64,000 bases of DNA, from NCBI RefSeq assembly GCF_037975245.1, contig NC_092572.1:7827501-7891500 (forward strand), read 5' to 3'. The position numbers were made by a program, and so were the translations under genes. Below the pieces are notes generated by a model. The model did no database searches and was not told where the DNA came from. It was given only the letters and a program-made list of their open reading frames with translations. The stretch comes from Apostichopus japonicus (Eukaryota > Echinodermata > Holothuroidea > Aspidochirotida > Stichopodidae). Within the stretch, counting starts at the first letter, position 1; each line of letters opens with the position of its first letter. Positions 7,271-63,615 of the stretch are shown here, in pieces.

Positions 7271-7764
7271 GTATACTGTATGTATAAACAGCTTAACAAC
7301 AATCAGTGTGATTAAAATACTCGTTCTTAAAGTTTGCTTAATACTCCCATGGAAAGAAACTGAGAAAAGATCTTTTGAGATGCAATTCGTCAGCTCTTAC
7401 TTAGCAAGGAAGTCAAAATAATCAAAAGAAAAGGGACAGCTTTGTTCATTTTCGTATATTAACAGTACTTAGTGATAAAGTAGTAAAGAGAAGGTGGAAC
7501 CATTAAAGTTGAATAACTAGAATGATTTTATTCAACTTACTATAGAAGAAGACATCTCAAAACAAATGAACTTTACTATTAACATATGAGAAATATTGAA
7601 GACGTAAAGTTAAATTTCAAAACATAGTATTGATATTATTTGAACATCAATAGAGATATATTCAAGGCAGTGATCATCGTATGCAACGACCGACAACGTA
7701 TTATCTTAGTTCAAATTTATTGTAAATATTTAACCGAAATTTGGCTTTCCAAGTTGACTTTCAG

Positions 7765-8910
7765 TGTGGCGTCTATATTGGAGTCTTACACACTTGAATC
7801 AGGAACCAAATATAATTGGGGTATTGCTTGTAAGTCTAATATTATTTTCAAGTTTTCTGAATATACTCAATAAACCATTCAAACTTACTTTTGAATACGG
7901 TAGAGCGAACGAAAATATCCTATCGATGAGACGTTAGCCAAACCTTTATCAATTTATATTGAACTATGTTTATTTTAGTATCGAGTAAATTTTCAACCGT
8001 CAGATTAACATCAGCCTTAACGTCTTTTGGAGAAGATTGGTATGTTCCTCTATGTTGTTAGAAGAGTTGACGTGTATCGACACCAGGTCATAAACCGGTA
8101 TTAGTTCACCCCATGAAGCAACATTTCTTGCAGTGCGTTATTAAACCATCTACTAGAATATTGTTTTTTCTGAAGAAAAGTGTTAAAGATGTTAGTAACT
8201 CCATGGTTTGTACACCTTATGGTGTACTAAAAGGAATGGTTTCGTATGGACTTTATATGGACTTTATATTTTGCATTTACATTTGACGATGACAGGTGAA
8301 GATGTCATCAGCACTGAACATAAGACTGTTATGTCAAAAAACATACAAGTTTTATACATGTGTGTTAAAGGTATTGATGATGCGCCATCTTTCTTTAGAT
8401 GAATATAATCTAATAGTTATAACCGTTATTTTGTGAAGCAGTTGAGTAAAGTCTCCTTGCTTTGGAATAATACTGTAGAAGAAAAAATTAATACCGTACC
8501 TTCGAGAGATTTTTCTTCGTGCTTTGGTTTTGGCTTTTAATTTCTGGCCTACATTCCCTGATATAAGAACAGATATGAAATGTATTTGAACAAATGCATA
8601 AACAGGACCACATTGTGGACAGAGACTATGAAGTAATAAAGATATAACGTCCTTCTTACCATGTATGGATCCGCAACGATGAGTGTAATAGTATCTACAT
8701 ACGATAACAATATATCATAATAAAACTATGGTCGCTTCAACTTTTGTGCCGCTGTCAATATACGACATTATTTGAAGGAGCTTTGTTAATTGAATTGTTC
8801 TTTTCATATGATTAAATAAGAGGTTAATCAACGGTCTACGTGCGTCTATTGCAGAATAATTAATTAACGACGATTTAACGAAAGTGAATCACGAGGCACG
8901 AGGTTCGTAC
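7765..8910 (-). pseudogene. Decayed fragment of an Ig/NACHT receptor gene
   Basis: Read on the minus strand, this matches the intact Ig/NACHT gene between about 23,960 and 22,195. It covers the intron upstream of the first linker exon, both linker exons with their donor sites still visible (near 8,660 and 8,508), the start of the NACHT exon (about 8,135) and a later part of that exon (about 7,765-8,040). About 450 bp that would hold Walker A and Walker B are deleted, and frame and stop lesions are present. No Ig exon was found beyond 8,910. Copy B has no equivalent: the match resumes directly after its Academ-like insert. The relic suggests the cassette was once repeated further to the left. 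Confidence 0.8.
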
Positions 8911-10542: not shown

Positions 10543-10868
10543 GTAAATTTAAAGCATACTTTCAGTGGTTGCTAAACAAATATAGCTATTTTTCAGCAAT
10601 AAATTTTCAAATAAGCTAATCATTTATATTTATCAGAGTTTATTTAATCAATTTCCTTGTGCGGTAGAACTTTGACTATAAATGTATACAATTGGGCAAC
10701 AATTGAGCTTTGTGTTAAGAAATTATCACATTTCTAGCCAATTCCTTACATAAATTAAAGCACTTGATTCCTTTCCTATCAAGGACATATCTTTAGAGAT
10801 AACAATATAGTTCTAAGGGTGCCCCTCATTATTAACACATTCCATGTTTTCCTTCTTATCAATTATAG

Positions 10869-11242
10869 TAACACCAACAATTGAAATTGTTGGGGAAAGC
10901 GTGGTTGTGAATACGGATACTAGCAGGACACTTTCGGCTATTGAGGGTTCGGATGTTGCGATACAATGTGCTATTTTCAACACAATCCTACCGTTAAACG
11001 TGACGTGGTTACAGAACGGAATTTATAACAGAACTGACACTTTTACTGACGTCACGAAACTAGAGATGAAAAATTTGACATCAAATTTGAAGTTCGAAAT
11101 GAGAGTCAATATTCAAAATTTCACATGTAAAGTTAATGGCAGATATGTTGTAAACCAAGAGAGTGAAATTATAATTCACATCCAAAATCCTAAGTCCAAT
11201 ACGACAGACGACACATCAGATAATAATTTCGTTCATTTGTGA
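10869..11242 (+). CDS. Ig-like domain 2, reading into an early stop in copy A
   Basis: The acceptor tatcaattatag opens an Ig2 exon with Cys in AIQCAIF, Trp in NVTWLQNG and Cys in FTCKVNG. At 11,219 the expected donor is lost because GT has become AT. Read-through adds DNNFVHL and a TGA at 11,240-11,242. A transcript ending here would encode a secreted two-Ig protein without the membrane helix. Whether such a transcript exists cannot be told from the sequence. Confidence 0.6.
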
Positions 11243-11508
11243 CTTCCATATAATTATAGCTTGGACTCGCAACGAGATACCTCAGTAAACATGTTATTGA
11301 AGCTCGGTACAGTTTTCAGACAAGCTATGCTCTAGTTGTTTGTTCGTTCTCTAAATCAGTGGATATTTGGATCACGAAGAGAATACTAAATAACAATTGT
11401 GAACCGGTTGTTCATTATTTAAAGGAACTATGTGGATAATGAAGTGCCCTTGACACAAGCCAAAAAAAGTTCTAGAAATCTTTTTCTTTACTAATTAAAT
11501 CTATACAG

Positions 11509-11607
11509 GTACTGATGAAGGCAAAATGGGCGTTTATTATTTTATCGTACCAATCCTCTTCACTATATCGACCTTGACGAGTTTACTTATGTTTTATAAA
11601 GTTCAAA
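11509..11607 (+). CDS. Transmembrane exon, Ig/kinase gene copy A
   Basis: This 99-nt phase 1-1 exon encodes a short polar start and then the hydrophobic run VYYFIVPILFTISTLTSLLM, followed by FYKVQ. It is nearly identical in copy B (51402-51500). A basic exon (RLRSQRMG, 12319-12358) follows, as expected for the cytoplasmic face of a type I membrane protein. Confidence 0.75.
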
Positions 11608-13137
11608 GTACGTAAAAATATCTAAGTAATCTGAATTACTGAATTAGGAAAACAAACTACAAACTTTAAAACATCACTGAAAACGTACATATTTAATAGG
11701 GCAAACGAAGCTTCAAAAGTGATTTTCCACAAAATCTACAAAATTGAGACTATATTTGTATATCACGTGGCCAGTATAATATTTGGAAGATCATCAAATT
11801 GCTGGAGTGTCTATTCCCTGTCGCCCTTCTAGCAATTGGTAATCTTTCAAAGGAGCTGTTAGGCACGACTTGAGAATGTAAGTAGCTTGGCATTGTAGTC
11901 CATTGACTGAGATTAATTTCAAAATAAAAACAAAGTTTAAAGAGCAACCCTCTTCTATGAATTTTGTGTCCGAAAATAGTTAATAGCTATAAAATTGCTG
12001 AAAATTCAATCCGACTTTGACATGAATTCACCTCATCTTGATAAGCATTTCCAAAATGAATTAAAACTCAGTTTCTGAATAAGAATAAACATTCCTGTTG
12101 GGATTAAACAAGTATATATTTAAAAAAGAAGAGAAAATGTAAGGATATTTCATTTCTGCAAATTAAAAATAAAACAAACATAAAAGAAAAACAAACACAA
12201 AGATAAAACTTTAGTAAATTTAAAAAAATCAGGAGCATAACGTGATGTCCTTTTAATGTCTGCGCTGTGACAGAATTGGTATATGTCATTATATTTCACA
12301 CGCTGTATTTTTTTTTAGGGCTGAGATCGCAGAGGATGGGCACTACAGAGAGAACAAAGTAAGTCACTTCAACCTCCTTATCTGAGCATTAAACACATAT
12401 TCAAGTTAACATGAAGTGCCAAATGAAGTTATACTCAGCTATACTTAGCTCGTATAATTTTTACAATTTTGGGATTTGTGTCCAAATGTATGCTTCTTTC
12501 TTCACAGGAAGAGTAACATATTTTGTCTTCATATTATCGCATATCTAAGATTTATATTTTCTTTTCTCCGTTTGAAGTATCCGCATACTGAATTTTTCAT
12601 AAAGCCCATTTGTAATAGTCAATATTTAGTTAATTTAGTAAACCGCTGTTCTTTTGATGTTATTTCAAGCATGACAACAACAACATTTAAAACAATCAAC
12701 ATACCTGTGAGTGAAGAAGTACAATATGAATCTCCAGACGATATGGTTGGTGGTAAGTTCTGTTTTCTTTCTAAAACCTGCTGATTTATCAATTCCGTAC
12801 GATCAGAGTTGTGGGAAGTCGATGATAACTACAATTCATTGTAACAAAACTAAATTGATTACTAAGACAGATTTTGGAATAAAGAATGTTTATTAAATAT
12901 GTGTTGTAATGTCTAATATGCAATATTGGTAAATTCTTAATCTGTACACTTAGTACGCAAGATACTTTGGGTTTTGACTGCCGTCCCTAGACAAATAAAA
13001 AGGCAATATAGGGTACGAAAACAACCAATTGGTTGACAGTTCAGATGAGCTGTGTTTAAAACTGAGGTCACTGCTTCGACTACCGTTCTATCCATAAGTT
13101 TCTTTACTCTTTCCCATTTTCTTTTGGCTTTTCAAAG

Positions 13138-16100
13138 AGTTCTACTTCTATGGAGACAACACTGTGTTAAATCGAGGGGACATTATACTGACGAGCTCTA
13201 TACCTTGCACGGGACGCATGAAGAGATGTATAGCATCTACGAAAGGAAAAGATCGATCGCTTATTGTAGCAAATACTTTGTGTGGTATGTTAATGTTTGT
13301 TGCATAGCTTCCTGATTAATTCACTATACTCTAACTACTGTTTAATTAAGTATATATATGGCCTTTTGTACTTTTTAAGAAAAGGTCGCACAGGAAAGAA
13401 CCTGGGCACGAAAGCCAAACTACTGAACGACTGATCCGCTTCCAACCCCAGTCCCCTTGCATCGGGACTGTGACTACGTGATCATCGTCAGGTGTGCATC
13501 ACCATTCGCCTCGAGAGGGAACAGATACTACACATGATCTTAGTCAATAGGCCGAGAAGCATATAGGTTGTGTGTAATGTAAATGTTTGTTGCATAGCTT
13601 CCTGCTTACAAATTCTGCCTGCACTCAGCATAAGACTTGACTATGACAAGAAGCCGTTTGTTTGTGGGCTCCTCCAGTGTATCAGAAACAGCAGCGGGTG
13701 CTATATAAGTCATGAGATGGAATCTAGATGATACGTCCAACTTACTGCACACTTATCTTAAACGTTGTACACTTTTCAAGCAAGACGATCAGGTTTAATG
13801 GTTTAGCAGGTTAACGACAACAAATTTAAAGGTTGAAAACAACACATTATTTGTGAACACAATAACTGAAAGGTGGAAGGGGATGGGGGGGGGGGGCAGA
13901 TTTTCCCAGGCTGGGCCGTATTTTTATGTAAAGACCAGCGGTGAATGAAGGTTTTTTTTATTTTACTGAACTGAAATGGAACTCAGAGATATATATTCTG
14001 TTTTTGCAGATAACTCAGCAAACGAAGACTGGCTTCAAATCAGATTTCTGGCTGAACATCTCAGACATATTCCGAAGCACAGAAATGTAGTAGAAATTGT
14101 GGCGGCTGGCACAGTACAAAGTAGGCAATAAATTGTTTAAAATAGTTTACATAAAATATGCACCTGTCACTGAGATTTGCTTTATCAACAATGTCTTTTA
14201 TTTTTTTATTTGCTTCATGTTTGGAAACAAATTGAATTGCTCGATATAATATATTCTTGTTCCACTTTATGATCCAAAAACTGTAGTTCCTTACTACATT
14301 TACACGGAATACATCACAAATGGTACTTTAAGGGATGTCCTTTGTAAAGCGAAATACGACGATTTCTATTCCAAGACTATATACATGCAGGGACTAAGTA
14401 GATCTGCTTAATCGTCCAATGCCCTACGGATTGGATCATTTTTATTGGAACCTCTGAAGGCCCTATTCTTTCTTGAATCAATAGACGTGAGCAACAGTGT
14501 CATTTGTATCAATCAACTGACTATAGTAAAATGCATATGCGAATGGTTCTGACGTCGCTCCGAACTTGTATCTGTTTTGTGACATATCTAACCCAGAGAT
14601 TACAGTATGAGCTATCAATGATAAAATAAGTCTTTATGAAAAGTCCTAAGCACTTAAGCACACTAAAATACAAATTTATTTTACAGTGTGATCATCCTGC
14701 TATTTGTTCGAGAAAGGTTCCTTTAACACCTAACATGGTGTGCAAACTGTTCGACTTCAACTTGCGATCAGCTACCAAGAAAATGCTCTCAAATATCAAG
14801 CTTGAGGTGAGGAAAAAAACTGTTTTAGTTTACTTTTTTTTTGAATTGTGTAAAATGCAATGATGATCTAAGTTCTTTCAAATGTATAAAGCAGTACCAC
14901 AATATTTAACAAGAGGACAATCCATGAAATTACAGATCTCATCACCTCCGCACAATTTAGGGCAATTTGAAATTTGATCTACGTTAACCTTTGACCTCGA
15001 TCCTTTGCAACCACATAAGTACTATTAAAAAATGTGTCCAATATTCTCTACATAACTTGCGGTATGATAAGCATGTGATGACAAAACACGTTTTTACATC
15101 TGACCGATGACGTTACCAATCATGTATGCATGAGTTTCGATTGTCAGGGACAAAGTTTAGAATTGATTAGACCTGCAGTGTAGGTGGAGTCTGCGACACT
15201 TTTTTTTAACAATTTAGGCCAACTTGACCTTTGACCTCAATTGACCCTTGACCCTGACCCAAAAAGTATCCTAATTTAACATTTCTTCTCATCATTCGTT
15301 ACATATCGAGTGATTTAGTGCCGTTGACAAGCAGAAATATGGTTAAAACAATTTTTAGGGGTTTGTTTGACCTTTGACGTAAGACGCTTTCAATCTCTAA
15401 GACACGAGTTTACACTATCAGACATCTAGCAAACAAAACTGAACTTGATCAGACTTGCGGTCTATGAGGAGTTTAGACACACTCTTTTCCTCACTTAATC
15501 ACACTTATCCACGTACTGACATTTATGATAGGTAACAATGTCATATCCCTATCCATCAAAGGTAGGGAGGTACGATAATGAATTTATTTATAAATGAACA
15601 TGCAATTGAATGTTTTATAAATTATCATAACATGTTTCTTACTGTTGTGAATTACATGAACGTGCTCAAAATTTGTAGGAAAACCTTCGTCTTCCATGGT
15701 TTGACCCGGAGACCATCTTCAAGAAATATTATGACCGAGAAAGTGATGTTTGGTCCTTTGCCGTTTTCATCTGGGAGATATTTTCTCAAGGTAAACGTTT
15801 TTGGTATTAAATTTGAAGTATACACTTCGAACGCAATAAACATAAAGATAGCTGTTTATTATAAATATAATATATTTTATGTTAAGTCTAATTCATGTAT
15901 TTTTCAAATTTATTTTTAATATTAACATGAAATGCAAATTACTCTTACTTTTAAGGAAGAGAGTATGAATACAACATATTGTATTCCCCATTTCCTTTAA
16001 GAGAAGCAATTAATGTACATGAGCAATGAATGTACTGTTAGAACATACATTAAAGGAAATAGTGTCTTGTAATTGTTTCTGTTTAACTCAAGGTACTTCT

Positions 16101-16599
16101 CCGTTTGATGGATTAGATATTATGAAGTTTGCTGCTCAGTCTTTACCAGTTCTCTCAAAGCCTGACTTATGTTCAGATTCTCTGTGAGTTATGTTCTGTT
16201 TAGTTGTTGGTTTGTTACTATTGGACTGTTGAATTATATTATATATTACTGAATATGAAAAATATACTTCACATGCTAAATGCCTTGTTTGGAATTTATC
16301 ATACCCTAAATATTGTTTACAATTATTTATTCTTAAGAGCAAATGTTGCTATAGAAACCGTTTTCATTTTTGGATTAAAATCACCCTGGAAATACATTAC
16401 GATGCATCAGTTTAATTCAATTATTTGAATTCATACCGATATTTGCTATATAAAAGTACAATGCAATTTTACATTCTCTGTAACATTGTATTCAATTTCA
16501 GATACACAATTAGTCTTGTTGAAGGTGGATCCTGCAGATCGAATTAGCCTCACAGCGTTAAAGACAAAGCTTTTTCAGCTAATAGAAAATATCGATTGA
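13138..16599 (+). pseudogene. Pseudokinase domain exons, copy A
   Basis: Seven exons align with the receptor tyrosine kinase fold. The beta-3 strand reads LIVANTL (Asn, 13272-13274, where VAIK has Lys). The helix C to beta-4 region reads IPKHRNVVEIVA. The hinge reads YYIYTEYITNGTLRDVL. The catalytic loop is HPAICSRK (14693 onward) where HRDLAARN is usual, and the activation segment starts DFN (14753-14761) instead of DFG. DPE replaces APE, then [14 protein letters not shown] matches subdomain IX well. Loss of the Lys, the HRD Asp, the catalytic-loop Asn and the DFG Gly makes phosphotransfer implausible, as in known pseudokinase receptors. The same substitutions occur in copy B. Confidence 0.85.
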
Positions 16600-18556
16600 A
16601 AGTTATAAGTACAATATACCGTTCCGAATTTCAAGGCGCTTAGGACATAAATCCTTTTTTTTTTAATGAAAACACAGCTAGTGAAATGATGAGAGGTACA
16701 TAATACATGGACCTGATGAAATGGATTATTCGTCTTAAAGTTTTTTTGGTAATATCAGCTCTGTTCCTTTTTGCATCAGGTTAGTTGTGGTAAAGGACAG
16801 TTTTATGTAAAAAAGAGTTTACTTTGTTGCTGTAAGATGTATTTTCTGTCTTCACGTTTCCTTGTTCATTACCAGCATGTTCATACATATTGAAGAAGCT
16901 AATACTCTATTTTTTTTTTTTTTTTTAAAGTTCAGAGTAGGACTATATATCAGAAGATATGCTAAACTACAGCAACGCGGTCTTAAAGTGGTCGATATTC
17001 AGATGAGATTTACCCACGTCCGAGCTACCGCATTTTTTTCCCCATATTGCTACGATATTACATAGAACACTTATATCATGCAGGCAAGAGCAACAAAGGC
17101 TATCGAAAAAAAACTGCATATGAATAAATTATACTTGTCATTTGGTATTACCTCAAATTGCAGCAATCTGCTTGTATCAAGTCGTTTATACCTGTACATA
17201 AAACGTTAACACATGCGCAGTTCCCTGATCGTGTAATAAATACGTATAAGATGGAAAAATTGTAGTATTTCCGCAATGTATTCATCAATAAAAAAAATCG
17301 CTGACTATGTTAGATCAGTTGTTTAAACAATTTGCACAAGGCAATAATTCTGAGGAAAAAAATGTACAAAGCGCAACAATTGGCTAGTATGCAACAACTT
17401 TAATCATTGGAAATACAAAAGGTGTAACCACGTATGCCAATCTTGTTTAACATATTATCAGGCAGAGGGGAAATTAAAATAAGGAGGCAAGATTGTGTAA
17501 GGGGACACTTTTAAACACCGTTCTCACCCACTTTTCGTATCTCTATTAGTTAACTTTTAAGTTGAATTGAAGTAGCAATATCATTATTTTTATTTTAATA
17601 CGTAAAACACTTCTGTTCTATAAATATAGATACATTTCGTCGGTTGCGACCGTAGTTTGCACGTTTCCGTTCTCTGAATAAATCCAGGTTAATTACGGTC
17701 TGACTAGTTTTTAGACGGTCTATTTTTGTCATATTCACATAATAGTGATACATATTACAATAGCTGCAGCTGTGGAATTGAACCAGGCAGTTAAAAAAAA
17801 CAGTTGAGAAAAAATCAATAACATTAAGACAATTATTTACTTTGTTAACTAGTTATCATGTTATCAACTCAATTAGATGAATGTTAAATAGGAAATGAAG
17901 ATTAAAGTTATTCGATATTTACAATATTGATAGAATAAAGTATTAAAACAAACAGTTTTCATTATTCACTGTTAATGCGTATCATAAAGCAATCACTGTC
18001 AAATTTTGCACTTTTCGCACTTTTTGTTATTAACACAAACTATTGTTAACTACTGTTGTAAGCTGTGATAAAGATAAGGTTTATTTTATTGATAAATCGT
18101 TTATAATTGTCCAAAAAATCTAAGCGGTTGCTATTCTGGTTAACAGTGATAAACATTTCGTTAATACATTACCGAAAATTATTGAGCTATGAGCAATGTT
18201 TATCGGCCAATAATGTAGTTTTGATAATTAATAAGTATTTGACTTCCACTACAGAATTGTTACGTCATAAATATGCTTTAAATATAATTCTATTATGACT
18301 CTTTGATTAAATTTTGAAATATAATTTACCCGGCTTTAAAATATATGTATATCTACGTGAAGAATTACCGATATGTAACAAGATTGAAGAGATGAAACCG
18401 GAATGTGCAAATATAAAGACAAAATTTATAAGGTATTCGTCAAGACGCTAAAAACAACTTCAACCATTTCTATTAACGGATTGAATGTAATTTTTTTACT
18501 CGTGGTTTGGCAAAAGTCTTTCATATATATACACCTTTATATAATATACCTTTATT
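16600..18556. other. Intergenic, duplicated; part tandemly repeated in copy B
   Basis: No gene was recognised. The part at about 16,930-18,065 matches copy B twice (58,389-60,125 and 60,126-61,250). A poly-T tract lies at about 16,911-16,926. Short frames such as 16,862-17,065 (+) are not conserved across the three versions. Confidence 0.5.
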
Positions 18557-19222
18557 CAGGCGTCAATCATGAGGGGGGGGGGGTAGGGGGACACGTGCCT
18601 CACTTTTTGAAGCGTGCATGGGGCACACAACATCAAATGCCCCCCTCCCCCGGTATAGTGACTGACTCGTGTAGGCGCTAGGATTATCAGGCTCATAATG
18701 ATTCGTGTATCTCATAAAAGGAGCTGAAACATTGTTATATGAGATGACTAGTTATTAATGTCTGATATGCGCATTCCCACCCCTCCCCCACCATCAACCT
18801 GTTGCAACAAGAAGTATGGACTTCATACCCAATATTGTGCAAACTTTAAGAATGTTTCCGACTATGGTTTAGGTTTAAAGTATATTGAAAATGATGAAGG
18901 CCCTAAGTAACACCCGCATGTTCTATAGATAATTTAAGTCTAATTCGTTTGTAATATGTGGTTATTGTTGAAATATATTTTGACTGACATATCAATTCAG
19001 GGACCAAACAGAAGCAGACATACATATTTCTGGATGTGAGTCAGCCCCTTGGGCCCCCGCCGGGGCTACTCCCCTGGACCACATCAGGTGCCCTCAGTCG
19101 GGCCCCTGGACCTCACTCGATAAAAGCTTTGCAAAAAGGCGCTCGCAGACGCCTTCAATGTTATCCATGTTAAGTCATTGATGCCCCCCCCCCCCTTACT
19201 TTTCAATTGGGATTGACGCCCT
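18557..19222. mobile_element. Non-autonomous element with CAGGSGTCAATC ends, copy A
   Basis: The left end caggcgtcaatcatg is inverted relative to the right end attgacgccctc. The copy B version (61,745-62,344) ends in aggattgacacccctg, giving a consensus end near CAGGGGYGTCAATC, typical of hAT-type MITEs. G-rich and C-rich runs lie just inside the ends. The flanks (ctttatt and ttttata) are compatible with a degraded 8-bp duplication. There is no coding capacity. Present in both copies, so older than the duplication. Confidence 0.5.
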
Positions 19223-19632
19223 CTTTTATATTAATGAAACCCTTGATGTCTCTAATAGCTAAACAGTCATCAGTTAGTATTAAAAAGAAAGATCCATGCT
19301 GATTCATTTCCATTTAACATTCCATATCTGAAGGTTCTAGAAATAATACGACAGATCCACCAACAACATATAAAGTTCATTCAAGTTTTGTTTTTGAAGT
19401 TTTTCCTGTTCATAAAGTAATTCAAGTTGGTTGACCTAAAATGACCTCTTCATAAACAATATGTGCTCATTTATTGAATCCACATTCGTAGTAGGAAATT
19501 CATGAAACATTCGCTTGTGATATCTCCAGGATCGGTTGATTTCAAACAACTGTAGCAACGCTCACGAAGATTTTAAAAACTCCGGTATTTTGGAATTTGT
19601 TTGAGTACATATTATGACACATAAAAGACTGA
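19223..19632. other. 3' flank between convergent genes
   Basis: This short region lies downstream of the Ig/NACHT stop codon and is conserved with 62,345-62,764. I saw no AATAAA close after the stop on the minus strand. Nothing else is recognised. Confidence 0.4.
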
Positions 19633-20473
19633 TTACATTTCTTTTGGAAAAAATTCATCTTCCCATTTTCCTTTCTTTGGGTTGAATTTTGGTACACTCA
19701 TGTTAGAAGGCGATTTCTTCTTACATTTATATACTAAAAAGGTAGAGAAGAGAGAAGAAGCATAAGTTAATACAATGAACGCAACGATTCTTTGCTATAA
19801 AATATCAACTGCAAGAACTTATACAAAGTATGTTATTAGTATGAACAGCTCCACACATAAATGCACTTTATCGTGAACCGAAAATAACGAAATTTAATGG
19901 AGAGTTGGGTTAATACATATGTTAAAAGTGAGTGAGAAACATTTCATAAAAAATGGAAAAAAAAACGCAAAAACTGAACCAACTACCAATGTACACATAA
20001 TATTGTTTCTATATCTTGTTATTGTATGTTATCCAAAAAAATCGTATTCAAAATATCACTCACTTTTCATGTCCAATCCCTTCAAAGCTGATTCCACTGT
20101 CTGCTTGGCTGCTCCTTTTAATTCGTCCGGTACCAAACATTTTACGAACCTTCATTAGAGATTATAAAGAAATAAATGTAAAATAGTTAATGTATATCTA
20201 TATTTATAAAAAAATAAAAGTCATAATTTATCAACATAACGAAATATAACACTAATCACATCTTACAGATGATTATAACGTAGTTAATGTCAAACATTCT
20301 TACTGTAGGATTTCTGGACAATTTTTATTTGCAAGGCTGGTGATGATTGATACGAATTGGTCTTTGTTGATGCTCATTTCCAGAAATATCAGGATTTTTA
20401 GTGAGGGCATTGTTATTTCTTTAATAAAGTCAATCGCGCACTCTTCTCTGAAAGTCATTACTTTCACTCTCAC
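19633..20473 (-). CDS. C-terminal exons of the Ig-NACHT gene
   Basis: Three small exons: 20473-20304 (phase 0 to 2), 20149-20064 (2 to 1) and 19733-19633 with TAA at 19635-19633. The first encodes a helix/strand unit (SLKILIFLEMSINKDQF) that could be a single degenerate LRR-like repeat. The last ends in a charged tail containing KFNPKKGKWEDEFF. All three are preserved with intact frames and splice sites in copy B (62,765-63,615), which supports their being real coding exons. No effector domain (CARD, DEATH, TIR) is recognised. Confidence 0.75.
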
Positions 20474-23400
20474 CTGTTGAAAGACAAGTAATTAAAGAGA
20501 CGTTAACATTAAGAACGTCATATATTTCCATATTGAATAACCCAACCAACATCATAAATATGTAACAATTTCCACTAATTGAGGCATATCACATTAATAA
20601 GTGTCTTTACAGTTAACTGAAATGGATTTTAGTTAAAACAAAATGATCCATTAAATACCGGTACCGTATAGTATTTCAGGATTTTATATTTGTTTTATAC
20701 ATGTATCAGGTCATAGCAAAGGTAATATAAAGAACTCTCATTTTGTAGAGAAATATGTTAATTAGATATTATAATTATGGTGGGCAATCATCCGGTTGAT
20801 AAAACCAGCTTAGGAATCATTCAGACAAGTTGAACATACAAATTCAAAAGTGAAATAATCCATTTTTTTTCATAAAATAAATTGAATGGATTTCCACTAC
20901 TTACATCGGAAGCATTGCAAACATCGCAGAAATCTGTTAAAGCAACTCTGTGGCGTTTCCTGTCAAGATTAAATATGTTAATGATCATTTTGCTACCCAG
21001 TTTACCCGCTTCATCGTTCATGCCGTTGATAATTGTTCGTTTCTTCTCGAGATTACTCATTTCATAAATACAGTCGATCAAATTGTTCCACATTTTCTGT
21101 TCCTTCAGGAGAGATTTTACGGCTTTATCCAATCTAGCATGATCCATGCCGAACATAAACTGTAATAACCTGACCGTTGCATTGTCTGCACTCTTTTTTA
21201 TAAATTCATCTATCCACGCCCATTCTTTATCACATTCTGGCACATACTGAGCAGCTAGAAATTCCTGAAAGAATTCATGATAAAACATACTTCCAGCATA
21301 GGACGAAAAAGCAAGTTCTTCTATTTGACTTCCTCCGCTTCCTACCTTCTTTGAATACTTGAGAAACCCTACGGCTAAGGCAAGTTCGGTGTCTTTTTTC
21401 CCAAGTTTATTGTTCCAATATTCGCGTTTACCCAATGAAAGGCTCATTTTGTTTTCAAATGCTATTTTACCAAGTCTAGCTTCCAGACTCTTAATATCTT
21501 CTTGAATGGACTGATTATTAACTTTCTGCACGTATTGGGATTCCAAACAAGTTATCACTAATCTTAGTATTGTTGTCAGTTTGTTAACATTCACCTCTTT
21601 ATATTTCCCTGATGGATCTATTATTCTGCATGTAATTATATGAACAATCATAATCAGCAGAAGGGGTGTTTCAGAAAAATTCTGAGAAATTTCGTTTAAT
21701 TCCATACATTCAGTAACTTTTTTTGAAAGTATTTCTAAAGTATCACAAGCTTCCGGGTTCTGCCCGTCGTTTCGTGGAACAGTGTTATCTTTCTGCTCTG
21801 ATTCTCTTTGCTTTACCTCGTGATGAGCAGCGGGAATTAACATTATTGTTACATCATCCAACACCTCGTCAGCTTTAATGTTACTTTCATTTGCTTCATT
21901 TTTGCCATCTTCTGTAAAAATGTCCTCGTCTTTTTTTTCTTCGTTTTGAAATTTTTCCACATCAACTGTTTTGGTTTGCTCCGTTATGTCTTGTTCTTTC
22001 TCTTCCGAGGTTTGTTTATTTTCTCCGTTAAACTCATTTATGTTTTTATCATTCTTTTTCCTATTCATCGGATTTTCATACTTTACATTTTCGGCATTGT
22101 TACATCCTCCATCTGTCACCGGCCGGCTGTCGGTATTTGTCGTTTTTATTTCAATCGTCTCTTCGTTGTTTGAATCCGATTTGGTTTGTTGTGTGGCGTC
22201 TAACTTAGATTCTTTCATCTTTGATTCGGGGATCAAGGTGAGTTGGGGTATTGCTTGTGATTTAAAGTAATATTTGCAGGTTTTATGAATATACTCATTG
22301 ATTTGAGAATTACTGAAACCATTCAAATTTACCTTTGAATATGGTAGGGCAAATGACGCCTTCATGTCATCAACTTCACGGGACGTTACCCAAACTTTGA
22401 TCTTTTTAAACTTAACAGTGTTGATTTTATTTTCGAGTAAATTTTCGACCGTTAGATTAGCATCATTTTCACCCTCCTCTTGAAGGAGATTGACACGTTC
22501 TTCTTTATCGTTAGTAGGATTCTCAGGAGATGTATTGGTACTAATCGTAGACATCGATAGCTCATCAAGCCCATCTAAGAGTACTTGAAACTCAAAATTC
22601 ATAAATATTTTAACAATATCGTCTACCGTCAAATCGATTCCAGCAGGCATCATTTCTTTGACAAGTTCGGAAAGAATCATGGAGGGATCAACCTCTTTAA
22701 GGTGAATATATATTAGTATAGTTTCCCTGAATTTTTTCTTTTTGTCAGTTTTCGTTGATATTATCTTTGATACCCAATCGCTAACCAGGTGCTGAGTGTA
22801 GGTTGTTTTCCCGTAACCTAAGTCTGCTATAATGAAGACCCGATTATTATCGAAATTAAACTCCTGTGTAGACATAATGTCGCTAGCGTGATGGCTGACG
22901 TCACCGTTCACGTTAGTGAGGGTGCACTGGCATGTAGTGTAAAGGGCATGTATCGGTATTGGTTCACCCCACGGTAGCGGCTTGATGAAGCCAAATTTCC
23001 CGTAGTACTTCATTAGCCCCTCCACTAAAGTATTTCTCATCTCTAAAGAAAAAAATAAATATATTAATGACTATTATGACATTATAGCAAGGAATGTTTT
23101 CAATGAGCAAGATATTTGCATATTTACATTTTGCATTAAAACTTGAGTATTACAGGCAGGGATGTCATCAGCAATAAACATAAAACTTTTATGTCATGAA
23201 CGCAATATGTATGATATATGTATTGATGATGCACTATCTTTCGTTAAATGAATGTAATTCATTTCTTACAAATAGCAATCTCCTTCATTTATTTTCATAT
23301 TTCTATGAACCTCCTTTTTGCAATATTAGGCTACAGCAGCAAACTGGTCTTTCTCCTTTTCCAGTTTTAAAGATCGACTAGGATGTTTTTGTTTTTTGCT

Positions 23401-26400
23401 TATTCACACATGTTACTGAATGTGTACACTTTACTAAAATCGTACCTCATAACGGAGACTGTGAGTTATTATATCAATACATTTTTACAGCAGTCGCGTC
23501 AAGTCTTTTTGCTTTGGAATCATAATGTTGAGGATGAAAAATTATATCGTACCTTCGGGTGATTTTTTCTTCGGTTTTGGTTTCGTATGTTTGGTCTGCA
23601 TTTCCTGATATAAGAACAGATATGAAATATATTGAAACAAATGGATAAATGAGACCACATTGTGGACAAAGGATATGAAGTTATAAAGATGTAACGTCCT
23701 TCTTACCGTGGATGGATCTGGAGTTGTCTCTTTAGTCGTATCTAAATCAACAAAAACAAAAATAATAAAAATCTGGTCAGTTCAATTTTTGTGGTTTGAT
23801 ATATAATGTCTGTTGTTAATATACATAATTATTTAATGCACCTTTGTAAAATGCGTTGTTTCTTATATGATTAAATAAGGGGTAAATCAACGGTCTACCA
23901 TGCAGCTAAGGCAGCATAATGCTCCAACAACTGTATAACGCAAGCGATGCACGAGTTCGTAGGTCGCATACATCCAGCAATAGCGTTACACCTTCGTTCA
24001 TTCATACAACACACTCAATAATCAATAACATCAATTTTCATCTACAAATGTTGCAATTTCTTGTAAACTTTAAAGGGGAAAAAACAACAATGTGTCCAAA
24101 CGGTGCAAAGAAGTTCTCTACTTATATAATAGTTAAGTCTCAAAACAAATTAGATGCAGAAGTAAAATAACAAGAATAACAGAAATATGCTATAGTGTAT
24201 GTAGTGCACAAACAACACCGCATTATACAATGAAATCAGCCTGGATAAGACCCAATGTAACTGTATGAACTTGCAGTGGCGGCAAAAGAAATGGCAAGTT
24301 TGGGGGTGGCAAGGAACAGTTGGGGGGAGGGGGAGGGATTTGAAAATACAAAAAGGGTACCTGAATAAAGTGCAAATCACAAGAAAATTCATCCGTTACG
24401 ATAATTTAAATTGATGAATATTTGCGACCGATTCACAACGACTAGCTGAGCAATGTTTCGAGAGAAACAAAGGAGAAAAAAAAATGAAACCTTTCTTTAT
24501 GATTACAATTGTGCACAGTTTCTACCTGCGAGTGCATGACCCTCAAAAGCTGCAGCACTATTAGATACTTCTTGTTCGCCCTTGTAGAGATTATGGAGCG
24601 CAAAAAGAAAAATATGTTTGAAAGTATGCTTGAAATATTCTAGCATTCTTGAGATAAATATAATCTGTTGTGACACCAACTAACATCGTTCCTTTCTTCT
24701 ATAAAGAAATTGTGATGCATAAAAGTTTGCAGTTGCCAACAAAGAACCTGCTACTTATTTGGGAGTTGCAACGATAATGGTTCTCTATGTTGTTGGTATG
24801 GTCGGAATATTGAACGTTATTAGGTCATTTCAAAACACCATACTTATTCTTACCATTTCTTCGGGCCCAAAAATTTGCGTTACCTCTTTTGCCATACAAA
24901 CAGCAAGCAATGAGGACGAGTATTAAAACAAAGAAAATTATAATTCCAATAACGACAAAGGCCCAGGCGACTTGACCTTTAGGGCTACTCGTGGGTTCCA
25001 TTGAAGGAGGCTCTTTGCAGGCTTCTGAAACGACATAATCAAGACAACGAAGATTGTACATGTCAGGTTACACAGTCTTGTATATGGATAGCGTAACATA
25101 TCTGAGAGCTATGCCTTTCCTGTGTTGTCGGCCAAAATTGAGATGTTATCATAAACACGCTTTAAATGTAAAGTATAACATCCTCCCCATACTGGTTTGT
25201 GCGCTGTCGCAATTACAGTTATCATTAGCCTTTTCCTCTGTATACCTGAAAGAATAACACTTTTATTGTTGTGAGTCACAACCCCTGGTTTCACACCTAT
25301 TATCATATTGCGATTTCAAATTATTTTGTCTATAGGTTTGCTTTGCAAGGACTTATAATTTCACTTTTGTTAAGGGTATACGTTTTGCCCTAATTGTGGA
25401 TATAGTAAAACAAAACAGTGATGCATTTTCTTACTAGCACAGATGTCTACCTGATTTGTGCAACTTTATGGCCACTTAATACCATCAAAACATAACTATA
25501 CATATAGCTATGCATTATGTTCATATCCCTCCGTTCTACATTGTCCTTCTGGTATGTTCAAAATGTGTACGTAAATCAATTCAACAGTAAAAACTAAGTC
25601 TTGATGAAGCTTTGGAATCTTCATATTACTTCTGTTCAATCAACGGACAAATTATAAACTGTCGTGTTACCTGTATGTATCCTTACAGTGCTAGAGTAAG
25701 TATCAAGGAGAGAAAGAAATGGAAAGTCTGACAAGGAAGCGATGCATCTGAAAGTAGCATCTGCTCCACAATCAGGTGTTGTGTATTCAATGGTTTTCCC
25801 AGTGTACCATCTGTCACCCATTTCTTTATGAGTTTGCTCTTCTTTAGTGAAGCTCACTCCAGACTGGTTAGTTACAATCCAGTCTACGTCCATCATTGGT
25901 CGAGAGCCACTCACATAACAAGTCAATGATCCGGATGTCGTAACGTTCACTTGACATCCAGTACAGGTCAAACCACAAGCATCAATCAGTGGGCAAGGAG
26001 GATCGGGTCGACCTGTCAGGATAAAACGTTAAAGATATTTACTCAGTGTTGTTGACGAGAGTGAAAATTTGTTTTTCAATTGATAAACCAATATATTAAT
26101 ATGACTGGATTCAAAGTGTTACAAGTGCATCGCTAACTAAATATTAATATTAAAAAAAGGTTATGTTTATTACTGTAAATCAAAAGCGCCGTGTTTGAGG
26201 TATCTTGTTCAAAGTTGTCAAAGTAAGCAGTCAGCGTATAGCTGCTTTCATGTTGTAACTGGCTATTAACGATTCTAAGAGATCCATTGATGGTTAACTC
26301 AAATTCCCCTTTGCGGTATTCGCTGCCACTTGATATGCCATCTGCGAGTGATAACAAAGGAGCGGTGCTCGTTGTTAATCCTTTGTACCAATACAAGTCG

Positions 26401-27086
26401 TAGTTGGAACCTAAAACGTAGCATGGAAGCTCCACTGACTTTCCCATTTCTGCAAAACACTTGGACTGACACTGAACACTACTTGCGTCTGTCAAGAAAA
26501 CATAATATTCCATATATCTCTATTTACATATTAACGGAATGAGCCTCGGTGTTTTTAAAACAATTATTTGATATATGGTTATTCAATAGTATCATATACA
26601 AGGCAAGAGACAGTAAAGATTGATTAAACAAACGGTAATCTGCAACTATTAAAACATGGACTTGTTGCGTTCAGCATATAACTGCTGTATTTACGTTTTT
26701 GCATACATTAATATGGACATATCATATACCATTCTGAATATTTTCCGATAGTGTCTAAAATAATTTTGAATTTTAAAAACAAGCATCAGTTATGCAGAAG
26801 CCATTTTAAGAGACACGGAAATGTAATATTGGTGAACACAAAGACGGAGTTTATTAAGACTGGGGATTAATTTTACATTCAGAAGCCTCTACCCGTCTTT
26901 TAATTCTCCTACTTGGATTATTTAAAAAAAAAAATCCCCTACTTTGAAATCTTGTGCATGCCACTGATTACTGATTTATGATAACAATTGAAAAAAATTT
27001 GTCTTACCCACAACATTCATACATGACATGATTACAACCAAGGCTGCAACGCACAAAATAATATATCTCCGTATCAAATCCATCAT
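19633..27086 (-). CDS. Transmembrane Ig-NACHT receptor (NLR-like), complete gene model
   Basis: Ten exons, all with GT/AG borders and matching phases: 27086-27008, 26488-26174, 26012-25671, 25024-24854, 23741-23707, 23595-23553, 23042-20905, 20473-20304, 20149-20064, 19733-19633. They total 3,480 nt, that is 1,159 codons plus TAA. Predicted order by residue: signal peptide 1-26, Ig1 27-131, Ig2 132-245, membrane helix about 264-289, basic linker 303-328, NACHT region 329-1041, tail 1042-1159. The NACHT module is an STAND-class ATPase used in NLR innate immune sensors; here it would face the cytosol behind an extracellular Ig pair. Extracellular binding with NACHT oligomerisation inside is inference. 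There are no stops or frameshifts. It converges on the Ig/kinase gene. The main doubt is whether the Ig/TM exons and the NACHT exon are spliced together; the agreement of all phases argues that they are. Confidence 0.85.
20905..23042 (-). CDS. NACHT ATPase exon of the Ig-NACHT gene
   Basis: One large 2,138-nt exon. A leading motif YYGKFGFIKPLPWG precedes the nucleotide-binding core. Walker A is ADLGYGKTT (GYGKTT, residues 404-409 of the full model), Walker B is LLDGLDE (483-489) and sensor 1 is WVTSR (546-550). The LDGLDE form with a following small residue and the TSR motif are NACHT hallmarks. Residues about 600-759 form a low-complexity Glu/Lys/Asn/Asp-rich insertion between the KYYF segment and the ETPLLLIMIV helix. 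FYHEFFQEFLAAQYV matches the H-x3-FQEFLAA signature of NLR winged-helix regions. No leucine-rich repeat array follows. An ATG at 23040-23038 could start a cytosolic form from an internal promoter; this cannot be excluded. Confidence 0.92.
24854..25024 (-). CDS. Transmembrane exon of the Ig-NACHT gene
   Basis: This 171-nt phase 1-1 exon has acceptor tgtcgtttcag and donor G|GTAAGAA. It encodes a Pro/Ser-rich stalk (EPPSMEPTSSPKG), a 26-residue hydrophobic run beginning VAWAFVVIGIIIFFVL, then KRGN and a WARRN basic stretch. Positive charge after the helix predicts a type I topology with the NACHT part inside the cell. If the donor were ignored the frame would stop at 24,825, giving a shorter membrane-anchored Ig protein. 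Confidence 0.85.
25671..26488 (-). CDS. Two Ig-like domain exons of the Ig-NACHT gene
   Basis: Two phase 1-1 exons, 26488-26174 (105 codons) and 26012-25671 (114 codons), separated by a 161-bp intron. Ig1 shows Cys in VELPCYVLG and Trp in DLYWYKG, but the late position where Ig folds normally have Y-x-C reads SYTLTAYF, so its core disulfide is atypical. Ig2 has Cys in SLTCYVSG, Trp in DVDWIVTN and Cys in TFRCIAS, a standard Cys-Trp-Cys pattern. Each domain in its own 1-1 exon is the usual arrangement for shuffled Ig domains. Confidence 0.8.
27008..27086 (-). CDS. Signal peptide exon of the Ig-NACHT gene
   Basis: The start is the ATG-ATG at 27086-27081 and the donor reads G|GTAAGAC. It encodes 26 residues: a basic start (MMDLIRRY), then a hydrophobic core (IILCVAALVVIMSC). 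This is a conventional cleavable signal sequence, and the phase 1 end fits the next Ig exon. Confidence 0.75.
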
Positions 27087-27355
27087 GTTCTTGAAGTATC
27101 AGGCGATCACTGTGCATCTAGAAGGTAACAATTTAAATGGTAGTTAGACAATTAAAATAGTTTACCTACATATTCAAATAAGCATGGAAAATATATTTGA
27201 TGTACAAGTAGTCGTCGGTAAATGAATAAAAGGAATTCGTTCCTGTCCGTATTCTCTTTATGTGTTTCAAAGTTTCAGTGACAGTTTCTAATAAACTAAT
27301 ATTATAGGCCACATGTTGGGAATTACTGCAAACTTAAAAGTAATTTGTTTCAAAG

Positions 27356-28450
27356 GACTGTAGGAAACCCAAGCCGGATCATCGGGGAAAGAGACACAGT
27401 AACTTTGGGAGGGAGGCTATTGCGGAAGCTGAAAGGGTTGAGGAAACGGTGGCCGCCGGCGAAAGTATTTTGGCTGAATATGGGGAAGCAGGTCAAGTCA
27501 AACTGGAGGCGGGCGCGGTTAAAGCCAGGGACGTGGGCGTGCCAGTAAGCGTAGGTTACGTAGGAGAACACAATGTCGAGGTGGTGAGGGATACCGGATG
27601 TAACACAGTAATAATTAGTAGGAAATTTGTGGGAAAGTCGGAGTTCACAGGGCAAGTACGACCATTGAAGTTGCTGGACAGCACAAAGCGGTGGCTTCCT
27701 GCTGCTAGAATTAAGATCGACACACCCTATTTCGTCGGATAGGTAAATGCGTTGGTGGTAGACAGCCCCTCTCACGATCTGATTATCGGGAACATAGAAG
27801 GAGCTAGGGATGCAAACAATCCAGATCCATGCCGGCAGCCATCAACAGTTAGGGAAGTGGAAGCGTTAGGGGGAGCTGTAGAGACGCGCGCACAGAAGAT
27901 AAGAAAGGAACGTCCGTAACAGCGGCTTAAATGTAAAGGGGCAGTCGGCCCTGTCATCGATAGTAAGGAGTTGTCTAAGGCTCAGAATGATGAGCAAGAA
28001 TTTGCTAAGTTTTACAAGTTGACAAAGAACGGGGAGGTAAGAGTATCGCGAAGGGGTAGTGAGGTAAAGTACGAAGTTTCTAAGGGGATACTGTTGAGGA
28101 AATTCAAAAGTGCCAAAGTTGAAAATGGGAGAGAATTTAATCACATGATTGTTCCAAAACTTCTTCGTGACAGTGTCATGAGCGTAGCGCACGACGCTCC
28201 CTTCAGGTCATCTAGGGGCAAAGAAAACCGCTGATAAGGTGACGAGAAGCCTCTATTGGCCGGGTGTTCAGCGCGACGTTAAGCTGTTCTGCGTTTCTTG
28301 CGACATTTGTCAAAGAACTGTGTCCAATGGATCTGTACCTAGGGTCCCCCTGGGGAAAATGCCTCTTATTGATACACCTTTTCATAGAGTCGCGATAGAC
28401 TTAGTAGCGCCCCTCGCTCCGATAGCTGATCGCAGAAATAGATATATTCT
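27356..28450 (+). pseudogene. Ty3/gypsy retroelement fragment, Gmr1-like (protease then integrase)
   Basis: One frame starts with the end of a gag zinc knuckle (CRKPKPDHRGKRH) and runs into a retropepsin-like segment with DTGCNTVI and the later LIIGNIEG. Stops interrupt it at 27,740 and 27,916. It then passes directly, without reverse transcriptase, into an integrase zinc-binding segment (GHLGAKKTADK after a frameshift near 28,200; CVSCDICQ) and the start of the integrase core (RVAIDLVAPL, RYILTL), breaking off near 28,450. PR followed by IN is the order described for Gmr1-like elements of deuterostomes; an RT deletion from an ordinary gypsy element is the alternative. It is more GC-rich than its surroundings. 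No LTRs were seen. It is a broken relic. Confidence 0.75.
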
Positions 28451-30848
28451 CACACTGGACCCGCGACAATGTGTGTGTCTGCGTGTCTTAAAGTTTATTT
28501 TTTTCCTATCAATGTATTACTGCTTGAACAGTACTTGTTTAACTACGATATTATTTCGCAGCAACTCCTCTACATCAAGGTACCGTTAATATTTTCCCTA
28601 TATTTGAATATGACGTATGTACTTAATGTCACTCAGACATAATTAGGTCTTCTTATGGTACTTAAGTTGAAGATCATTTATTTGCTTATCAGTTGTCTAA
28701 TTAAATATGTATGTTTATGGCTTCATCCTGCCTAAGTTCTGTCAACCACTGCTGCGCCTAAAGAAAATTCTTCTCTCTAGCATTGGAAAGTGTAAGCTAT
28801 ATGATATCTGTCCTTTGACCACATTTATTGGCAAAGATTGAAGAACTCATGGACAAAGATAACTTAATTCGTAACATTTATGAGGGACATATAACGAAAT
28901 ATTGGAAGTTTAGTAGTTGGACCGTGCTGAATGAAATATAGTAACTTTAATGGTATACTAAATATAGATCTGATGTAACGTATGCGAAGTCAGAGAAATG
29001 ACGAATTTAAGTGCAAATGGTGTAGCTGTTATATGTAATTTAAGAAATTATGTCGTCATCCTAAATAACTCATTTTGGTATTTCAATCAAATTCATGATC
29101 CTGTGACTACCATTCATTCAATATCGTAAGCTGCGTAACATGCATAACTTTTCAGTTTCTACTTAAACAGGAACGTCCATCTATTGCATGGATGGCTCTG
29201 GAGACAATTTCCATGCAGGAATATTATCAAGGGTAACGTTGCATGGGAATATGCTGTGCTATTATGGAGTTATTTTCTTTTAATAATAACGATACTCTAC
29301 ATATAACTGTTCCTAGTATATTAATGAATGCGGTGGTTCGGTTATTTTGCTATGTAATCGATTCCGGAGAATTGATATGAAAGAAAAACATATTTTTGTT
29401 ATATTTACTCTCCAAGTTGTTTATCTGAAATCATTGTTTGTATTATATTAACTTGTGTTGGGGGACTTTCAAGATATGATCACTGTATAAATTATGTTGG
29501 GCTCTACAGTATTTACAATACTTCTAATATCAGTTAACGTGATAATTAGTATCCTCTTGACATTTACACACACTTGTATTAGGACAAAGGTCAATGGCAA
29601 CTGATAACATGAAAGCTATATATTCTCATGTAGAAGATCACATTTTAATTTTTTTTTTTAAATTATCATATGAAGGAGAAATGGGAATAAATTAACAAGA
29701 CAAACATCTAACTTGATTTCTTTATCTTTAACTGAAATCCCATTAGCAAGAGTAAGTGCCTCTGAGGTTGACAAACAAATCAGAGTGGGATTTATCTGAC
29801 CACAATCTCTTTGTTGTCCTTGAGCTGTATAGAATTTATTCATTTTAACTTTGAACAATTTGTAGCGTTGATAAAGATTTAAGAAACGTTTCTTTGCCTT
29901 CTTTTGCACAACCCTTGCCTGCCTTAAGTGAAACAAAAAGTAGCTAATGGTAGTCGTGGTCGATCTTCTGACAAGATATTCATTTCATATATGTAATGTC
30001 AATTTACACTTGAAACAGTGGAACGGAAAGAGGCATATCATAGCGGTATGATTTCAAACCGATATTTATGAGGGGTAGTAAAGTGCCCCCCCCCACTCTT
30101 TCACCCTCCCACCACAACCCCATATCATGATATCATAAATGATTTTGCTGCAGAGTCAGCTACCCCGAAAATTGTAAAGAGCAAACTTAAAAAGGAAACT
30201 TAACGTAATTATAGTATGTCGATAAATTATTGAACGTGGTGTTACAGATAGTTAGGTCCTTTTAGCCGACTAGTCATTAGTATTACCGTTTTCTTCACAG
30301 GTATGTTATTATGCTATCTTCTTGGAGTACCAGAAAAGGGAGCGACCTAAAATTAGTACGATAGCAACAAATATGGTGTCAAAATCAAAACAAGTAAGAA
30401 TGACAGGTAGTACTACTACAGCCCCTTAGTATAGGTATAATTAGTTAACGGGTTCAGACATGAAATCTGAAAGCTTTAAATATGTATAGTAGGATAATAA
30501 ATTTACCAGGAACAATATATATTTATACCAGTGTTACCAACAAGGAAATGTAGAGATGCATTTTGCTTTCTGTGACTCACCAATGACTTTAATTAAGGAT
30601 AAAGATTGCAATAAGAAACATGTAATGCAAAACTTCTATCCTATCAAGGGACGTGCAGTGCACATTTAACAGGAAAGAAAGTCAACCAGAGATATGTCGT
30701 TCATTTTGAAATGTATATTGGGGTAAGGTTAATATTCGCGGGCTCAATGTCAAGTTGGCTCTGGTTCTCGAAGCCTCTGACAACGACAGGTTGTTAAACA
30801 TTATCGGAAATTATGCCTTGGTTCGAAGTAAGAACGTTAACGCATACG
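28451..30848. other. Intergenic, nothing recognised
   Basis: AT-rich sequence with short frames only (for example 29,658-29,936 on the minus strand), none recognisable. A poly-C tract lies near 30,089. The stretch lies outside the part of the duplication visible here. Confidence 0.5.
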
Positions 30849-33120: not shown

Positions 33121-33790
33121 TAGCAAAATATATAATACAGAGGCAGATACATAGTTTTATCCTTTAAAAAACTTACCCTTTAGAAAATGGCTCCTGTGAA
33201 TTCACTTGTATTTTTGCACATCGTATACATTATAAATTATTCAAAATGGCGACATGGCGTCTTTTGACATATTTACACAATAGAGAAATTCCGGTTGCGG
33301 GCGCATTTCTGTTATCGGTAAAATCGGTTCAAATTGCAGTTTGAATAAACATGACTTGACTTATCGTGTCGGGCAAGTGGAACATGTCTCGCTGAAATAA
33401 AATATTACTTTGAAGACACGGCAGGCTGTATTTTGACGGCAGGCAGTAAAATGACAAAATATATAATACAGAGGCACATACAAAATGTTATCCTTTAAAA
33501 AGTAACTTACCCTTTAGAAAATGGCTCCTGTGAATTCACTTATATTTCAGCACATTGTATACATTATCAATTATTCAAAATGGCGACATGGCGTCTTGTG
33601 ACATTTTTACACAATAGAGGAATTCCGGTTGCGGACGCACTTCTGTTATCTGTAAAATCTGTTCAAATTGGAATTTGAATAAACATGACTTGACTTATCG
33701 TGTCGGGCAAGTGAACATGTCTCGCTGAAATAAAATATTACTTTAAATATACGGAAGGCTGTATTTTGGTTTTGGGTCTTTTAGGGGAAT
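33121..33790. repeat. Local tandem duplication (about 335 bp x 2) at the left edge of copy B
   Basis: The stretch from about 33,121 (aaaatatataatacagaggc) to 33,450 repeats from about 33,456, both units containing gaaaatggctcctgtgaattc followed by the sequence that opens the window. The first unit is slightly shorter and diverged. This places the junction of the large duplication in or next to this tandem pair. Confidence 0.8.
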
Positions 33791-55400: not shown

Positions 55401-55401
55401 A

Positions 55402-62764: not shown

Positions 62765-63615
62765 TTACAAGTCTTTTGGAAACAATTCCTTTTCCCATTT
62801 TCCTTTCTTTGGGTTGAATTTTGGTACCCTCATAGTAGCAGGCGATGTCTTCTTACAGTGATATACTAAGAAAAGTAGATAAGAGAGAAGCGGCAAAAGT
62901 TAATAAACCGAATGTAAGGATTCTTGTGATACAAAATATAAACTGCATGAAAAAAGAACGTAGAGAAGGCCTGTTATTAGAAGCTTATGAACAGGTCCAT
63001 ACATGAATGCACTTTATCATGAACCGAAAAATAACTTAATTTAATAGAGAGATGGGTTAGTATAAATTTTAAAAGTTAGTGGGAAACATTTTACGAAAAT
63101 TGAAAAAAAACGCACAAAATGAACCAACTGCCAATGTACACACAATATTGATTCTTTATCTGGTTATTGTATGTTATCCAAAACAAATCGTATTCAGAAT
63201 ATTACTCACTTTTCATGTCCAATCCCTTCAAAGCTGATTCCACTGTCTGCTTGGCTTCTTCATTTAATCTGTCCGGTACCGAACATTTTACGAACCTTTA
63301 TTAAAGATGATAAAGAAATAAATATAAAATATTTAATATATATCTATATATAAAGAAATAAAGTCATAATTTATCAACATAACGAACGATCACACTAATC
63401 ACCATTAAAAGATGATTACAACGAGGTATTATCAAACATTCTTACTGTAGGGTTTCTGGACATTTTCGATTAGTAAGGCTGGTGATGATTGATACGAATT
63501 GGTCTTCATTGATGTTCATTTCAATAAATATCAGGAATTTTAATGAGAGCAGTGTTACGTCTTTTATGAAGTCAATAGCACACTCTCCTCTAAGTGTCAT
63601 TCGTCTCAGTCTTAC
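62765..63615 (-). CDS. Second Ig-NACHT gene, C-terminal exons only (rest outside window)
   Basis: Three exons match the tail of the complete gene: 63615-63446 (170 nt), 63295-63210 (86 nt) and 62865-62765 (101 nt, TAA at the end). Lengths, phases and splice dinucleotides are identical. The first exon has about 15 amino-acid changes in 56 residues, with no stop or indel, for example SLKFLIFIEMNINEDQF against SLKILIFLEMSINKDQF. The NACHT exon should begin just beyond 64,000. Clean frames suggest this copy is still functional, unlike its kinase-like neighbour. Confidence 0.8.

Follow-up and report, generated by a model that had tools for sequence, protein, structure and literature searches.

A gene on the minus strand of contig NC_092572.1 of the sea cucumber Apostichopus japonicus (NCBI RefSeq assembly GCF_037975245.1) is predicted to encode a receptor with two outward-facing immunoglobulin (Ig) domains, a single transmembrane (TM) helix and a cytoplasmic NACHT ATPase. 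It occupies positions 27086..19633 of the window, the whole stretch of 64,000 nucleotides analysed here (contig positions 7,827,501 to 7,891,500 of the forward strand). Very likely, this immune-type receptor gene, which is duplicated in tandem, belongs to the Ig-TM-NACHT type already published from sea cucumbers and would act by a single-pass sense-and-cluster mechanism. A preliminary description of the locus, made from its letters alone, had held that no well-described family shows this domain order. This is not so, as both AjNLRC4 (PMC8699970) and AjNLR-new (PIK48001.1; PMC13133943, JBC 2026) have been published with an Ig-TM-NACHT layout. The gene is a further case of an architecture that was already known, and it adds a topology argument, a full exon structure and a duplication history.

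The gene model consists of ten exons with AG/GT borders, which join in a single frame with splice phases 1-1-1-1-0-1-0-2-1 throughout (Table 1). The exon chain and phases proposed in the preliminary description hold up, whereas its length of 1,159 codons does not: the joined coding sequence has 1,163 codons including the stop, and specifies a protein of 1,162 amino acids (131.8 kDa, isoelectric point (pI) 5.47). The junctions of this Ig-NACHT gene are inferred from sequence. Scored against a nine-base donor consensus, the nine donors agree at 5-8 of 9 positions, and the nine acceptors contain 11-15 pyrimidines among the 16 bases at -20 to -5. A possible alternative donor in the TM exon (exon 4), at 24884, would leave the phase unchanged and shorten the protein by 10 residues. 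The NACHT exon sits inside a stop-free run of 749 codons, and when the whole window was resampled 100 times with a first-order Markov model, the longest such run was 191 codons (mean 140); the length of this open reading frame is far beyond chance. A chance chain of exons was rejected on open reading frame length, splice phases and Pfam scores. The guanine-cytosine content of the window (35.1%) is compatible with that reported for the A. japonicus genome (36.75%; PMC5638244), a weak indication of origin.

A domain search of the joined protein, proposed in the preliminary description, found two Pfam families over their gathering scores, namely V-set (3.8e-7, residues 39-127) and NACHT (5.1e-7, residues 400-586). 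The remaining four families listed for the protein all fell under theirs, including Commissureless (0.012), which is taken as a chance match. The first Ig domain (V-set) lacks, by eye, the usual F-strand cysteine. Exon 3 is called a second Ig domain because of its weak Pfam scores (exon alone: C1-set 0.005 and ig 0.0092, both below cut-off), two cysteines at places that are Ig-like by eye (163 and 221), and its position. The Ig region carries sequons at residues 94, 154 and 180. The features of a NACHT-type STAND ATPase are present, with Walker A, Walker B and sensor 1 motifs accompanying the Pfam match. The signal peptide, two Ig domains, membrane helix with basic flank and complete NACHT core described previously are all recovered, the second Ig domain only below the Pfam cut-off. 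Further along exon 7 follow segments that we presume to be the HD1/GxP helix and the FQEF motif of NLRs.

There was no CARD or leucine-rich repeat (LRR) match on the joined protein at Pfam E values up to 1, and none of any kind for exon 8 up to 10. A search of solved-structure sequences found no match to the whole NACHT exon up to E 1; when two of its pieces were searched, one gave two matches and the other a single one, all at chance level (E 0.26-0.43). NCBIfam, searched with the whole NACHT exon and two pieces, gave a single irrelevant match far below its cut-off. Alignment-free folding of two NACHT pieces reached a mean predicted local distance difference test score (pLDDT) of 33.0 and 36.4; these models were too poor and were not used for fold searches.

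Membrane topology was read from the sequence by hydropathy and charge balance. The leading stretches in a 19-residue hydropathy scan are residues 268-286 (3.55), 8-26 (2.57) and 792-810 (1.70). Stretch 8-26 looks like a signal peptide, and V26-D27-A28 fits the -3,-1 cleavage rule. The 15 residues after helix 268-286 contain four K/R and no D/E, and the 15 before it one of each. Because of this signal-like N-terminus, the one strong helix and the charge balance, the sequence argues for a single-pass protein with its Ig domains outside and its NACHT domain inside, in support of the single-pass Ig receptor with cytoplasmic NACHT that had been proposed.

The same considerations give reasons to doubt two published topologies. 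In AjNLRC4, a second helix (776-795) has been placed after the NACHT domain (600-757) (PMC8699970). A two-pass protein of this kind would here have to use stretch 792-810, which is the third most hydrophobic and likewise follows NACHT. Its hydropathy is only 1.70 against 3.55 for the main helix, and its summed biological-scale score is +6.67 against -6.73. It lies 392 residues from the Pfam NACHT start (400); subtracting the 162-residue acidic insert and a surplus of ~40 residues in the Walker B to sensor 1 interval (a by-eye estimate) leaves ~190, compared with 176 in AjNLRC4 (600 to 776). It shows the P-L-L-L layout of the NLR HD1 GxP helix; after it come FQEFLAA, a segment resembling those of NLRs, and a match to NLRC4_HD2 (E 0.16, below cut-off). 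Because of the layout and the NACHT spacing like that of AjNLRC4, we take the 'second helix' as part of HD1; the published second helix of AjNLRC4 is probably an NLR HD1 helix, and two passes are extremely unlikely for the present protein. For AjNLR-new, the authors place the Ig-like and Ig domains inside, between two predicted helices, and the C-terminal NACHT outside, citing TMHMM (PMC13133943). Carried over to the present protein, the N-terminal stretch would be the first helix, for which its hydropathy (2.57) could let it pass, the Ig domains would be cytosolic and NACHT extracellular. In keeping with such an arrangement, added recombinant AjNLR-new NACHT bound coelomocyte surfaces in a manner blocked by antibody, recombinant Ig bound very little, and a fragment comprising the last TM segment plus NACHT co-localised with a membrane dye in 293T cells (PMC13133943). 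In our judgement, however, neither surface binding of an added recombinant domain nor dye co-localisation reports the membrane side of the native domain. The N-terminal stretch moreover has the layout of a signal peptide with a plausible cleavage site, the cysteine-rich, sequon-bearing Ig domains come next, and basic residues follow helix 268-286. TMHMM is known to read signal peptides as helices, by which a type I receptor would be turned inside out on paper, and an extracellular NACHT ATPase would be unusual. We thus consider the inverted arrangement very unlikely here. The published extracellular NACHT of AjNLR-new may stem from such a misreading, and the same correction may apply to it because it shares the layout and is nearly equal in length, mass and pI.

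The duplication emerged from a comparison of the window with itself (pieces of at least 150 bases). Positions 1-7185 match pieces of 33201-45457, and 9201-20861 match pieces of 49506-64000; their order is conserved, identity is ~69-91%, and insertions lie between the pieces. Because the matched pieces are collinear across the window, it contains a tandem repeat with a unit of roughly 40 kb. A second such gene is represented by exons 8-10, open and with matching splice sites; the rest of it would lie past the right end of the window. A third copy is clearly decayed, with stops and insertions or deletions (indels) in the parts that are left.

Several results weigh against the favoured explanation. 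Between the two copies of exons 8-10, the ratio of non-synonymous to synonymous substitution rates (dN/dS) is 0.73 over 118 codons, so that constraint looks weak; changes are spread 16/13/19 over codon positions 1/2/3, and identity is 311/357 in exons and 935/1,091 outside them. The NLRC4_HD2 (WHD/HD2) match after NACHT stays below the Pfam cut-off. The outer part is ~267 residues long, compared with 482 in AjNLRC4, and residues 1-262 contain no LxxD caspase-1 motif of the AjNLRC4 type; we do not take this motif as defining Ig-TM-NACHT receptors, since it is not named for AjNLR-new in the available text of PMC13133943. The weak substitution signal and the decayed copy nearby could also mean that the gene is a pseudogene heading for decay. 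Against this, the frame is open over its full 1,162 codons with intact splice borders, and 21 of the 22 indel events around exons 8-10 fall outside exons, the other being a 6-base gap in the final codons of exon 10. Because of this gap, the equal lengths of exons 8-10 in the two copies are partly chance. Coding constraint on these exons is visible in indels and weak in substitutions, and decay of the gene is improbable. A further possibility is that two neighbouring genes have been joined in error, a short Ig-TM receptor and a NACHT gene whose first exon is exon 7: exon 4 is readable on to a stop at 24825, and exon 7 has a methionine (residue 333) at its start. Yet exons 5 and 6 span the gap in phase, and AjNLRC4 and AjNLR-new are each described as single proteins. 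In addition, the sequence after the alternative stop (24824..23760) contains only one ATTAAA, ~1 kb from that stop, against an AATAAA at 19475, ~160 bases past the full-length stop. Two separate genes are therefore most improbable, and the short form ending at 24825 could be an alternative transcript.

As a single-pass receptor, the protein would enter the membrane via its signal peptide and cross it once. The ligand bound by its two outward Ig domains would probably be sugars on microbial surfaces or a partner at the cell surface, and clustering of these domains would bring the inner NACHT-HD1-WHD modules together; the assembled complex could then drive uptake via actin and/or a death route of the caspase-1-like/MLKL kind. 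Structure, domains, membrane helix, charge balance and duplication are here read from the gene's own sequence, whereas for the functional steps AjNLRC4 serves as the model, from which the present protein may deviate. AjNLRC4 is located at the membrane, binds microbes through its Ig part, and is dimerised and internalised after Vibrio infection, and its NACHT domain binds beta-actin with a dissociation constant (Kd) of 5.87 uM (PMC8699970). It has also been reported to form a caspase-1 complex via its Ig part, where an LxxD motif is described, with MLKL cleavage (PMC11932488). By analogy, we infer that the present protein acts as AjNLRC4 does, with nucleotide binding by NACHT as the switch. The preliminary description had suggested signalling by ectodomain-driven NACHT oligomerisation. 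The clustering part of this idea finds partial support in AjNLRC4, whose recombinant Ig part oligomerised in vitro and which gave a crosslinked dimer-sized band after infection; oligomerisation of the NACHT ATPase as the signal is not demonstrated in the available text of that study (PMC8699970).

Table 1. Features of the Ig-TM-NACHT gene and its copies (window positions; residues of the joined protein).
Feature	Position	Strand	Basis or remark
Exon 1: start codon and signal peptide (MMDLIRRYIILCVAALVVIMSCMNVV)	27008..27086	-	ranks second in the 19-residue hydropathy scan
Exon 2: first Ig domain (V-set)	26174..26488	-	Pfam V-set 3.8e-7, above cut-off
Exon 3: putative second Ig domain, extra cysteines	25671..26012	-	weak Pfam scores, cysteines, position
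Exon 4: stalk, membrane helix (residues 268-286, ~24959..24903), basic inner flank	24854..25024	-	hydropathy 3.55, protein maximum
Exon 5: predicted cytoplasmic linker	23707..23741	-	in-phase exon chain
Exon 6: predicted cytoplasmic linker, lysine-rich	23553..23604	-	in-phase exon chain; decayed relative at 8437-8895
Exon 7: NACHT module, acidic insert, HD1/GxP-like hydrophobic helix, FYHEFFQEF	20905..23042	-	Pfam NACHT 1.8e-8 on its own piece 22260-23040
Exon 8: C-terminal piece, LRR-like by eye	20304..20473	-	no Pfam match; open in second copy
Exon 9	20064..20149	-	open in second copy, splice sites matching
Exon 10: basic C-terminal tail and stop codon	19633..19733	-	open in second copy; AATAAA at 19475
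Walker A, GYGKTT (residue 407 on)	22818..22801	-	sequence motif
Walker B, LLDGLDE (residue 486 on)	22581..22561	-	sequence motif
Sensor 1, WVTSR (residue 549 on)	22392..22378	-	sequence motif
Acidic insert, 162 residues (604-765), 41 D/E and 23 K/R	22227..21742	-	between NACHT core and HD1-like helix
HD1/GxP-like hydrophobic helix (residues 792-810)	21675..21619	-	hydropathy; name presumed
NLR-like FYHEFFQEF	21285..21259	-	by sequence; FQEF motif presumed
Exons 8-10 of second such gene	62765..63615	-	63615..63446, 63295..63210 and 62865..62765, all open with matching splice sites
Decayed third copy: exon 5/6 region and NACHT-exon piece with stops and indels	7729..8895	-	window self-comparison

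Duplicated together with the Ig-TM-NACHT gene, and tail to tail with it, is an Ig-TM-kinase-like gene on the plus strand (10188-16599 and 50492-58063). In both copies (10.2-16.6 kb and 50.5-58 kb), a pair of Ig-like exons is accompanied by a hydrophobic piece and by pieces resembling kinases. Seven kinase-like pieces were marked out; Pfam matched one of six (15679-15807, PK_Tyr_Ser-Thr 6e-11) and none of the other five. The Ig-like exon at 10865-11185 matches Pfam ig at 0.008, below cut-off; that at 10221-10541 has no Pfam match, and its copy at 50525-50845 only an unrelated weak one. Kinases carry a catalytic loop of the form HRDLAARN and a DFG motif; by eye, the corresponding sequences in both copies are HPAICSRK and DFN. 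Because HRD is thus read as HPA and DFG as DFN, the neighbour is perhaps a pseudokinase receptor. A shared origin of the Ig fronts of the two genes is not supported (33% identity over 57 columns, E ~10-14, not significant). NLRs and tyrosine-protein kinase receptors are among five expanded, clustered families in the A. japonicus genome (PMC5638244). It is conceivable, if rather unlikely, that the two genes were duplicated together because their products work as a pair, with the pseudokinase receptor as co-receptor or regulator of the NACHT receptor.

Mobile elements and repeats also lie in the window. Within the second tandem unit, 53797-55188 on the plus strand encodes a reverse transcriptase and a GIY-YIG domain (Pfam), an element that we take to be Penelope-like from its domain order. 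Remains of a retrotransposon are found just upstream of exon 1 (27344-28589, plus strand; integrase H2C2 zinc-binding 1.5e-12, weak aspartyl protease 0.13). A cysteine-rich open frame with no Pfam match (47941-48369, plus strand) presumably resembles a transposon-type cysteine-rich tail, and local direct and inverted repeats of ~150-600 bases occupy 36084-37613.

With vertebrate NLRs such as NLRC4 and NLRP3, the present protein has in common a NACHT domain and a putative HD1/WHD-like continuation; vertebrate NLRs, however, are cytosolic and carry CARD or PYD and LRR domains. A strict definition of NLRs (NACHT plus C-terminal LRR) does not extend to a protein in which Pfam finds no LRR. Surface receptors with an inner inflammasome-type ATPase would join two branches of immunity that vertebrates keep apart. 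Among other animals, sponge NLRs include NACHT proteins with predicted transmembrane segments, as here (PMC12909245); an Ig-NACHT protein is not named in the available text of that paper, nor in that of PMC11797021 or PMC13228809. The sea cucumber Chiridota heheva has NLRs with an Ig V-set domain, named among six NLRs with other domains, a combination that according to the authors was not found in sea urchin NLRs (PMC8913654). These proteins share NACHT and Ig V-set with the present gene, and the word 'transmembrane' is absent from the main text of that paper.

The published sea cucumber receptors come nearer. AjNLRC4, on which functional work has been done, has an Ig-like domain, an Ig domain, a TM helix and NACHT in that order (PMC8699970). 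Compared by description, it matches the present protein in these elements, in their order and in having neither CARD nor LRR, and differs in the two helices counted by its authors against one strong helix here. With the exons joined as predicted, the succession of two Ig domains, membrane helix and NACHT within a single protein appears to be shared with both AjNLRC4 and AjNLR-new. By length (1,197 versus 1,162 amino acids), mass (136 versus 131.8 kDa), pI (5.34 versus 5.47) and domain order, set against its published description rather than its sequence, AjNLR-new is the closest published counterpart of the gene described here (PMC13133943).

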